64,000 bases of DNA. It comes from Halocatena pleomorpha. GTDB lineage: Archaea > Halobacteriota > Halobacteria > Halobacteriales > Haloarculaceae. Below are positions 17,658 through 23,702 of this stretch, piece by piece. How positions within the stretch are numbered: position 1 is the stretch's first letter; each line of letters opens with the position of its first letter. Location: NCBI RefSeq assembly GCF_003862495.1, contig NZ_RRCH01000021.1:1-64000 (forward strand). The letters are read 5' to 3'. The notes below the pieces were generated by a model, which was given only the letters and a program-made list of their open reading frames with translations, had not been told where the DNA came from and made no database searches. The translations under genes and the position numbers were made by a program.

Positions 17658-17936
17658 TTACTTGTGTTGGTCGACAGTCTCGATGTCGAATCGGTCGACA
17701 TCATCGACGAGGTTCTGGATCCGTTCTCGCGCGTCGCGCGGGGAGTCAGCGACGACGACGAGACCGTCGACAGGTGGTGGGCCGCTGGCTTTGTACGCCT
17801 CTCGTTCTTCGAAACTCGTCGCGTAGGTGCGAAGGATCGACCGTACGCGAATCTCCATCGATCCGAGATCTATTTCGCCGTCTTCGAACTCCGTGAGGGC
17901 GTCTTCGACGTTTCTGAGAGCGGATATGCGGTCCAT
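17658..17936 (-). CDS. Small conserved protein coupled to mcm
   Basis: A 92-residue acidic protein with no recognisable catalytic motif. Its ATG shares a base with the mcm stop codon (TAATG on the minus strand), so the two are almost certainly co-translated. The sequence has a central PPPVDGLVVVADSPRDARERI segment. A role linked to replication is inferred from the coupling only. Confidence 0.62.
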   Translation of the reverse strand: MDRISALRNVEDALTEFEDGEIDLGSMEIRVRSILRTYATSFEEREAYKASGPPPVDGLVVVADSPRDARERIQNLVDDVDRFDIETVDQHK

Positions 17937-20578
17937 TACACCGTTCTGAACGTATCGGCTTGGGGTTCGTACACGTCACCTTGACGCCGTAGCTTTTCGA
18001 GTTCGTACTCGGCCTTCTCTCGGTCCATTCCGACCGACTCAACACGGTCGAGCACTTCCTCGCGTGGCGCACCCACGTCGTGGTCCTCTTCGACTTCCGC
18101 GATGATGCCTTTGAGGTTGCGGATCCGATCGCGTTGACTTTTTGACGTACCAGTTTCGATCACGTCGGCGTCGAACTCACCGGTTTCGGGATCCATCCCG
18201 ATGTCTTCGAGCGACGCGGTCACGATGTCCAGAACGCGATCGACATCCTCGGAATCGACGGTGTCGGACAAACGGACGCGGGCACTCGCTTCGGCCAAGC
18301 GAACGAGCGCCTCGAGCTTCCGCGCCGTCACCGGGACTGGCGCGTCAGTGTCCGTGCCTTGTGAGCGAAGATCTACGTAGAACTCCTCGATAGCAGTTTT
18401 TGCCTCTTCAGTCATCATCGGGAAGCAGCTCCGTCTCGCGTATGCGATGTATTTCCGCAAGAGATCGGCGTCGATCGCCGGTTCGACATCTTCGGTGACC
18501 GTGTTGACCTCCTCTTGGGAGACATCCGACGCGCTGTTTTCAGCACGGTGGGTGTGTAACTCCCCTGCGTAGTTCGTGTTAATGATATGTTGTGCGAGTT
18601 TTTTGTCTTCTTCGGGATCCGGCTTGTCGGTCACGGTGAATATGATATCGAATCGTGAGACGAGGGCCGGTTCGAGATCGATCTGTCCGGCGATTGCCTC
18701 GAATTCGTCGAAACGGCCGTATTTCGGGTTCGCAGCCCCGAGCAGCGAACACCTGGATTTAAGCGTTGCGTTGATGCCGGCCTTGCTGACGCTGATCTCC
18801 TGCTGTTCGAGGGCCTCGTGCATTGCTGAGCGGTCCTCGGAGTTGTGGACGACCATCCCATTGGCAATGAAGTTGTGTGTCCCGGCGACGGTGAGATCGT
18901 ACACTGCCTCGTACTCGTGGTTCTCGACCACTCTGGTGGTCTCGACTCGACAGTAGGAGATATCTCGCTCCGGTTTCTGGATCGGTGCGGTGGCTGTGTG
19001 AGGGACGGTTCCGCCATCAGTGACCGCTCGGGAACCGTCGGGAACGGCCACCCAATCACCGGGTGTGAGCGATTGTGCAGACGTTTCAGCGCGCTCACCA
19101 TCTTGGAGAACGAAAAACGGATGATCCGGTGTCGCCGTGAGCTGTGCTCCGGATTCAAGCGTGATCTCCCATAGCCGATTCGGGGCGTCGTACTCGTGGA
19201 CCGCATCGACAGAGCGGCGAACAAGACGATCGTCGTCGGTTGCGGTCAGCACATCGATGTTCGTTCCGCGGATCGTTCTGCCGTTCCGATGGTTCTCAGT
19301 ATCACCGTGCAGCGACGCGTCGTCTGCGAGTTCACGGATGGGAATGATACCGTCGGCGGTGCGGACGAGAGTGTCTCCAGTCACACACCGCATCTTGTCC
19401 AGTTCGTCGACCGCCGCGACGCCTTGGTCTGCAAGCACGAGCGCCCCTGCTTCGAGCGACCACTGTTGTCCGTCACCGAAATCATCACGGACCGCTGCGG
19501 CCGTGATCCCTGCTGCAGAAGAACCCTTCCCAGATGTGTACACCGAACGTGGTGCAATATTTCTCACGTACTGCAACAGCTGGGATTTTCCCGTCCCCGG
19601 ATCACCGATCAACAGGATGTGCATGTCGCCCCGAATCCGCGATCCGTCCGGGAGGTGCTTCGTCACCCCGGAGAACAACTGCAGCATGATGGCGAGCTTT
19701 TCCTTTTCATAACCGTAGATCGAGGGCGCCATCGACGCGATCATCTGCTGGTAGATGTCCTCCTCGTCGGACAAGGAAATGATGCGTTTTTTGTCCTCTT
19801 CGGTGATCGTCATGTCCTCAAACCGGTCATCCTCGATATCGACGGTTACACCATCCATGTAGATGTCGAACATCGTGGATTTCTCGCCGTGGGATTCCTG
19901 CTGGTCGAGGTGTAACACTCCCGTTACGCGGACCGTATCACCGGCAGTGACATCACCGGTGATGTCGTCTTCGATGTTAATGTCGATGCTTTGTGGTCGT
20001 TCACCACCACGCAATCCTTCAGGACTCTCCTGTACCCGGAGTTTCTGGGCGTCGACGAATTCCGATTGGTCGAAGTTGATCCGGAATGGACCTTGTCGTT
20101 CACACCCCTGACACTCGTGAGGAGAGTGGAAATCGCCACCAGTTTGAGGAATACGCGTCAACGTTCCACACCGCTGACATTCAAACGCCGCGTCTTGGAT
20201 CTTCGGACGGACATTCGTCGCTTTCCGGATAATTCCACGGATACTCACTAGTTGTCCATGATGGTGCGAACGAATATCTCGGATTCCGGTCGTCTCCGGG
20301 AGATCGTACACGCGGACGTGAGCCTGTCCAAGGCTCACGTCGACCGGGAGATCGTAAAGACGCAACGCCTCTTCTGCGTACTCCTGAAACTGTTCGGGCT
20401 GTGTTCGAACGTCCTCAGCAAGGGACTGATCGAAGCGGTACAGGTCGTTCCACGAGATATACAGTGAGCGCTCATCGTTCGGGTATTTGCGCGCCAGCTC
20501 ACCGATCTCGTTGCGGTAGTACGTGCGGTAGAACTCCTCGAAGCGATCAATGATATCGGTGTTCTCCGCGTGAGCCAT
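17936..20578 (-). CDS. mcm: MCM replicative helicase with intein
   Basis: An 880-residue precursor, giving 698 residues after splicing. An N-terminal domain carries a zinc site (CQRCG and CQGCE). The AAA+ domain has Walker A GDPGTGKS, Walker B VAAVDELDKM and the arginine finger SRFDIIF, and a C-terminal winged helix follows. MCM unwinds DNA at the replication fork. The intein (residues 398-579) sits directly after Walker B, so the helicase cannot work until it is removed. I chose the ATG at 20578 since the longer frame adds 26 residues unlike MCM. The stop overlaps the start of the next gene. Confidence 0.95.
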   Translation of the reverse strand: MAHAENTDIIDRFEEFYRTYYRNEIGELARKYPNDERSLYISWNDLYRFDQSLAEDVRTQPEQFQEYAEEALRLYDLPVDVSLGQAHVRVYDLPETTGIRDIRSHHHGQLVSIRGIIRKATNVRPKIQDAAFECQRCGTLTRIPQTGGDFHSPHECQGCERQGPFRINFDQSEFVDAQKLRVQESPEGLRGGERPQSIDINIEDDITGDVTAGDTVRVTGVLHLDQQESHGEKSTMFDIYMDGVTVDIEDDRFEDMTITEEDKKRIISLSDEEDIYQQMIASMAPSIYGYEKEKLAIMLQLFSGVTKHLPDGSRIRGDMHILLIGDPGTGKSQLLQYVRNIAPRSVYTSGKGSSAAGITAAAVRDDFGDGQQWSLEAGALVLADQGVAAVDELDKMRCVTGDTLVRTADGIIPIRELADDASLHGDTENHRNGRTIRGTNIDVLTATDDDRLVRRSVDAVHEYDAPNRLWEITLESGAQLTATPDHPFFVLQDGERAETSAQSLTPGDWVAVPDGSRAVTDGGTVPHTATAPIQKPERDISYCRVETTRVVENHEYEAVYDLTVAGTHNFIANGMVVHNSEDRSAMHEALEQQEISVSKAGINATLKSRCSLLGAANPKYGRFDEFEAIAGQIDLEPALVSRFDIIFTVTDKPDPEEDKKLAQHIINTNYAGELHTHRAENSASDVSQEEVNTVTEDVEPAIDADLLRKYIAYARRSCFPMMTEEAKTAIEEFYVDLRSQGTDTDAPVPVTARKLEALVRLAEASARVRLSDTVDSEDVDRVLDIVTASLEDIGMDPETGEFDADVIETGTSKSQRDRIRNLKGIIAEVEEDHDVGAPREEVLDRVESVGMDREKAEYELEKLRRQGDVYEPQADTFRTV
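18842..19387 (-). other. Mini-intein within MCM
   Basis: A 182-residue insertion. It begins with Cys (CVTGDTLV, block A), contains the block-B-like ATPDHPFFV, and ends with the block F/G pattern VYDLTVAGTHNFIANGMVVHN followed by Ser+1. Removing it restores the normal MCM sequence KMR|SEDRSAMHEALEQ. It is too short for a LAGLIDADG homing endonuclease and none is seen, so it should splice but not spread by itself. Confidence 0.92.
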
Positions 20579-20666
20579 TGAGTCGTTGGTTATGCATCTC
20601 CGGATAAGTACCTTCGCACAGTTGAGTGAAACTGAATGTGAACGGATGAGTGTCATCTCACACCGG

Positions 20667-22922: not shown

Positions 22923-23702
22923 ATGAACAGACGGCGCGTTCTGGTGGGACTCACAGCAGGGATCTCCTCTCTCGCCGGCTGTGGCACGTATTTTGATATC
23001 AACAGGAATGACACAACGACCACTACGCCCACGACAACGACGGTCTCCGAAACTGCGCGCACTACAGCCACTGACACTCCGGTTCCGACGGCGACAGCGA
23101 CACCTCCCTCGACTGCGGAGTTACCGACGGGCACGGTCACGGAGAGCGAGACGGCTCCCGACCTGTCGACTCGGAAGCCGTACACGAATGACCGCTATCT
23201 TTAAACAGCGAGAGAATCCCGCCGTTCACGGCGGGGAGGATGTCACGGGTACACCATCGAATACCCGATTGGATGGACGATCGACGCGACGGATCCGGCC
23301 GCTGTGACCATCGGATCAAACGTGGGTGCCTTGCTCGTAGAGGTGACAGAGGACATTCCATCGTCGCTCACGGTCGCGGACATCGTTCCGGTGTTCGTAG
23401 AGGGGTACAAAGATTCGATCGAAGAGGAAGGAGGATCTATCGAAGAACTCGATCGTCGAGACGAAATCCTTCCGAACGGGCACGACGCCACGGTGATCGA
23501 TCTGCGGATGGAACAGCACGCGACCGTGATCCGACAGAAAATGCTCCTCGCCGTCGCTAACGAGATGGCCTACGTCGCTGTCGTTATGGTCTCTGATTCA
23601 GTTTTCACGACAGATGTCGATGAAAATATTGAAAGGATCCTGTTGACGTTGCACATCACTGAATCAGCCGTCGGGACCGAATCCGCCGGTGTACCAGTGT
23701 AA
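22923..23702 (+). pseudogene. Disrupted Tat/Sec lipoprotein gene
   Basis: The first part (22923-23198) codes for a lipoprotein with lipobox LAGC and a Thr-rich linker ending NDRY. The second part (23247-23702) continues in the same frame with GYTIEYPIGWTID and a conserved-looking 150-residue domain. Between them lies a 48-bp insertion that adds a stop codon. Without it the fusion DRY-GYTIEYP is seamless. The original product was a surface lipoprotein of about 245 residues; a downstream GTG (23304) could still give a signal-less fragment. Confidence 0.82.
23199..23246 (+). mobile_element. Solo right end of an IS200/IS605-type element
   Basis: A 48-bp insertion carrying the hairpin CCCGCCGTTCACGGCGGG preceded by GAGAAT and followed by GAGGATGTCA. 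This matches, from memory, the 3' terminal structure of haloarchaeal IS200/IS605 and IS1341-type (TnpB) elements, the same region that gives the TnpB guide-RNA scaffold. No transposase or tnpB gene is present. It may be a PATE-like non-autonomous element or a deletion remnant. Confidence 0.75.

Follow-up and report, generated by a model that had tools for sequence, protein, structure and literature searches.

A single-hairpin 48-bp insert in a haloarchaeal lipoprotein gene is probably the scar of an IS605-type element that lost its core

A lipoprotein gene in a 3.65-Mb haloarchaeal draft genome (G000) is broken by a 48-bp insert in which the left end (LE) and right end (RE) of an IS605-type element are fused on one hairpin. 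This insert is probably an immobile scar that was formed by deletion of the core of such an element, comparable to a solo LTR. The insertion and its exact ends are directly observed, as are the LE/RE hybrid nature of the class of copies to which it belongs and the presence in the same genome of matching RE copies and a matching LE copy that is accompanied by the transposase TnpA. An earlier note on this DNA took the insert to be a solo right end, a reading that is ruled out because its left 20 nt match LE sequence.

The gene is preserved as two pieces within the window, the whole 64,000-nt stretch of DNA that was analyzed (Table 1), and the upstream open reading frame stops at a TAA two codons inside the insert. 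In G004, a genome from the same genus, the uninterrupted ortholog (locus L047) is 77% identical, and its alignment with the window shows one gap, which opens immediately 3' of CGCTAT and measures exactly 48 nt. The frame of the G004 ortholog is continuous across the site and reads NDRY-AYTIEYP, which bears out the earlier proposals that 48 bp split the gene and that their removal restores the frame; rather than holding the 48 bases within an intact gene, the relative has an empty site. A Pfam search with the ortholog returned no match. The insert is too short to encode a transposase, has a palindrome near its ends, and is without terminal inverted repeats. Neither Y1 TnpA nor any other gene is present in the 48 nt, and the ends match those of IS605-type elements, in agreement with the view that the insert is a gene-less, IS200/IS605-derived sequence of the PATE type. 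The DNA hairpin has a 7-bp stem, a TTCA loop, and a predicted energy of -9.4 kcal/mol, with 5 of 200 shuffles as good. The end that the earlier note assigned to the insert was not correct, and the sequence actually terminates in ...GTCAC.

Table 1. Features of the interrupted gene and its insert, in window coordinates.
Feature	Position	Strand	Remarks
Interrupted lipoprotein gene	22923..23702	+	lipobox ...SSLAGC; upstream piece 22923-23204, downstream piece 23247-23702
Target and left cleavage site C_L = CTAT	23195..23198	+	in left flank; insertion exactly 3' of CTAT relative to the empty site
48-bp single-hairpin element, LE + RE fused	23199..23246	+	genome copies, empty site
LE-derived segment CTTTAAACAGCGAGAGAATC	23199..23218	+	identical to the LE preceding Y1 TnpA at C21:275140
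Left guide G_L = AGAA	23213..23216	+	predicted to pair with CTAT by the IS608 rule; fourth-base covariation in 58 left ends; PMC5934647
Single hairpin CCCGCCG-TTCA-CGGCGGG	23218..23235	+	arms assigned to LE (left) and RE (right)
RE-derived tail GAGGATGTCAC	23236..23246	+	terminates in right cleavage site C_R = TCAC; guide GAAG missing

Further copies are present in the genome, a search of which gave 28 matches of mainly three kinds. Left ends consist of CTAT, ~20 nt ending in GAGAATC, a hairpin, and then CGTGAATC..., and one of them precedes a Y1 transposase. Right ends consist of GGGAAGCC, a hairpin, and GAGGATGTCAC, with several adjoining TnpB pieces. Single-hairpin copies (stubs) start like a left end and finish like a right end, with one hairpin shared by the two halves. 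Accordingly, the left half of the insert corresponds to the LE before TnpA and its right half to the REs, several of which lie beside TnpB pieces, so that similar sequence adjoins both gene types. The genome holds eight single-hairpin copies, all of them behind CTAT, with seven 48 nt and one 46 nt long. The recurrence of the insert is not due to chance: the identical 48 nt together with 5 nt more are present again at C11 (E=3.7e-21), partial matches are numerous, and reversed-pattern controls gave 0 hits. Three of the eight local copies (window, C11, and C22) have clean 48-nt empty sites in G004, while at the C1 site G004 lacks the insert and 8 further bases, and the alignments of C23a and C23b are not clean at the junction. 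The window and C11 copies are identical, C22 and C23b are one base apart, and each of the other four differs from every other copy by at least 3 bases; the local single-hairpin copies resemble the local left and right ends. In the C9:91058 region (L218) and at L034, left ends have a shortened left hairpin that is immediately followed by additional long hairpins, first GACGAGACGCGATGCGTCTCGTT and then CAGAACGCTTCGCGTTCTG. A GACTC substitution common to C22 and C23b was considered as proof of stub transposition and rejected, since the longer left end at C9:91058 has it too.

The terminal motifs can be compared with those of IS608, where each hairpin has on its 5' side a guide tetranucleotide that pairs with the cleavage site: AAAG with TTAC at the left end and GAAT with TCAA at the right (PMC5934647). 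By analogy with these pairs, CTAT would call for AGAA and TCAC for GAAG. AGAA is found before the left hairpin and GAAG before right hairpins, and CTAT lies directly 5' of 53 of 58 collected left ends. At the fourth base, site and guide covary in both sets, with T-A in 52, C-G in 3, and T-C in 3 of the 58 left ends, and C-G in 65 and A-T in 2 of 67 right ends; right ends with TCAT bear GGAAAC. As judged from these motifs, the guide and cleavage-site pairing of IS608 fits both ends of the haloarchaeal elements, and this pairing sets the element bounds given in Table 1, with CTAT outside. The insert has the left pair AGAA/CTAT, and the right guide GAAG is absent. Complete parents with the same ends are about 1449-1851 bp long, a parent on pNRC200 of Halobacterium has both TnpA and TnpB, and two-hairpin forms with the same ends are 412 and 480 bp. 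A second haloarchaeal set of single-hairpin sequences (L095, L117, and L151) has a TTAC target, an AAAG guide, and a TCAA end, which are the IS608 tetranucleotides.

The stems of the single-hairpin copies provide evidence for how stubs form. A mismatch at the outer stem pair affects 13 of 30 singles compared with 2 of 67 right ends (p=1.8e-6), in which this pair is nearly always matched as C-G, G-C, or T-A. The mismatched pairs in singles are C.C or C.A, with a C as the LE base and a C or A as the RE base. Order-wide, the outer pair is mismatched in 25 of 63 singles and at least one stem mismatch is present in 38 of 63, a count that took 63 of the 72 hits described below because the rest look like other end types. 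The mismatched singles are hybrids, with the left arm of an LE and the right arm of an RE. Stems of this hybrid kind would follow directly from a crossover, or from slippage, between two hairpins that are imperfect direct repeats of each other. The stem of the window copy is matched, as expected from a likely parent whose LE and RE hairpins are identical here (C21:275155 and C21:13-43).

A pattern search of 392 genomes of the order found 72 single-hairpin hits in 52 genomes. One copy per genome is the usual state, and the host genome is the outlier with eight copies, the next highest number being four; no copy-number burst was found among the 392 genomes. Two genomes from different species, G117 and G131 (L154 and L158), carry a stub at the same site, and the site is empty by exactly 48 nt in a third species (G116), with CTAC as the target. 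The presence of this stub in G117 and G131 and its absence from G116 indicate that stubs persist and can outlast speciation. No pair of full element and stub at one site was found, either at the G117/G131 site in 20 genomes or at the seven other local copies in 7 genomes, and sites with a clean alignment of both flanks were either empty or occupied by a stub. Insertion is into a fixed short target (CTAT, or CTAC at the G117/G131 site) without target duplication.

In the origin that we propose, the Y1 transposase TnpA would have moved an IS605-type element, or a derivative with two hairpins, into the lipoprotein gene on the 3' side of CTAT. The hairpins at LE and RE of this element are near-identical direct repeats, and recombination or replication slippage between them would have removed the intervening DNA along with one repeat, so that 48 nt would remain, comprising LE up to the hairpin loop and RE from the loop onward. 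This product would retain C_L, G_L, one hairpin, and C_R but would have lost the right guide, G_R. Without G_R, TnpA should fail to hold and cut the right end, and the stub would stay as a scar with the gene left broken. An essential role for G_R would hold if the haloarchaeal TnpA behaves like that of IS608. At the window site itself, we infer both the deletion step and the immobility of its product. Repeat-mediated core deletion to 52 bp has been documented between two Haloquadratum strains (PMC3119063).

Alternatively, the 48-bp unit could itself be mobile, with TnpA acting in trans and using one hairpin and the left guide for both ends, or pairing two units, and inserting the unit 3' of CTAT. 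We consider this unlikely, but several observations would fit it. The exact 48-nt empty sites and the eight copies in the host genome are what a mobile unit could produce, and the two identical or nearly identical pairs (window/C11 and C22/C23b) can also be explained by stub transposition and so count against a scar. Counter-evidence to a scar also comes from Haloquadratum, where six strain-specific insertions of ISHwa23 are all terminal-only and, as the authors suggest, may be mobilized (PMC3119063). However, the unit is missing the right guide, its stem is mismatched in more than half of the order-wide singles, it typically occurs once per genome with no burst, and its local copies mostly differ from each other and resemble local ends instead. 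The specific proposal that TnpA in trans moves a single 48-nt hairpin unit that serves simultaneously as left and right end is likewise unlikely; if true, the unit would be among the smallest transposable units known. Because the right guide is lost and only one hairpin remains, many stems are damaged, and stubs are both rare and persistent, we favor a core-deletion scar.

Arrival of the 48 nt by another route, for example horizontal acquisition of the gene in its interrupted state or a rearrangement without recombination, is improbable: the empty site of the lipoprotein gene was seen in one close relative only, which leaves room for such a history, but the insert agrees exactly with the general pattern in its target, ends, and length. 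It is highly improbable that the insert is a stand-alone TnpB guide RNA, with a 3' scaffold and flanking guide used by TnpB in trans, for although the likeness to guide RNAs in the earlier note holds for the last 28 nt, which look like the RE of elements that carry TnpB and are oriented correctly for the right flank to supply the guide, most of the scaffold region is missing, and a complete scaffold is ruled out by the absence of the conserved segment ATTCCC...GGGAAGCC that REs carry before the last hairpin (as read by eye from a right-end alignment with one misplaced row, L033, from wrong strand coordinates), and an Rfam search of the insert gave only a sub-threshold match, with none above the gathering score.

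Stubs frequently coincide with the stop codons of genes. On the other strand the target reads ATAG or GTAG and the end of the element GTGA or ATGA, and insertion at a TAG stop codon supplies TGA instead, with the final codon altered at its third position alone and the protein left unchanged or nearly so. Frame-0 open reading frames of at least 100 aa end in the element at 18 of 41 singles at CTAY, not all of which are independent, compared with background rates, over all such sites in the loci, of 5% at CTAT and 9% at CTAC. At the end of ndk (L015, C22), G004 has GAA TAG and the host genome GAG TGA, and stop-codon insertions also occur on plasmids (L125 and L126). Selection against other insertions probably explains part of this excess. 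The window copy is not a stop-codon case, as its frame-0 open reading frame is antisense to the broken gene. Elsewhere in the window, at 17936-20656 on the minus strand, an MCM helicase gene contains an in-frame mini-intein (Pfam Intein_splicing, residues 440-605).

On the scar reading, stubs are durable traces of earlier IS605 insertions whose orientation can be read, much as with solo LTRs, and they account for some of the broken genes and unusual gene ends in annotated haloarchaeal genomes. The insert belongs to a kind of sequence that is already described, the 52-bp terminal-only PATEs of Haloquadratum walsbyi (HqIRS46 and ISHwa23), which were described in 2011 as products of core deletion between repeats (PMC3119063). 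That work includes the 4-5-nt target in the annotated element, and with the target counted the lengths agree, as 52 = 48 + 4. It left two options for the 52-bp elements, that they move or that they are deletion products (PMC3119063); the hybrid stems, the missing right guide, and the small number of copies favor scars. In the papers searched, we found neither the evidence from hybrid stems nor an analysis of the guides and the loss of the right one, nor the distribution across the order.

The Haloquadratum elements and the insert are alike in size, in having one palindrome and fused IS605 ends with no gene and no target duplication, and in their haloarchaeal hosts. They differ in that the parent here has a CTAT target and a TCAC end and that copies occur in several sequence subtypes, and LE/RE hybrid stems and right-guide loss are described here. 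Full haloarchaeal IS605-type elements with TnpA and TnpB, such as those on pNRC200 of Halobacterium salinarum, have an LE, RE, target, and guides of the same kind, but unlike the stub they possess genes and two hairpins. The PATE-like ends-only element of Halanaerobium (271 nt) likewise has IS605 ends without a transposase, but is much longer and retains the LE hairpin, a piece of tnpB, and the whole RE (PMC7290912). REP sequences and their TnpA-REP system (PMC8266576) share with the stub a single short hairpin related to the substrates of Y1 transposases, whereas the stub is distinguished by the IS605 guide AGAA at its foot, its CTAT and TCAC cleavage sites, and its low copy number.
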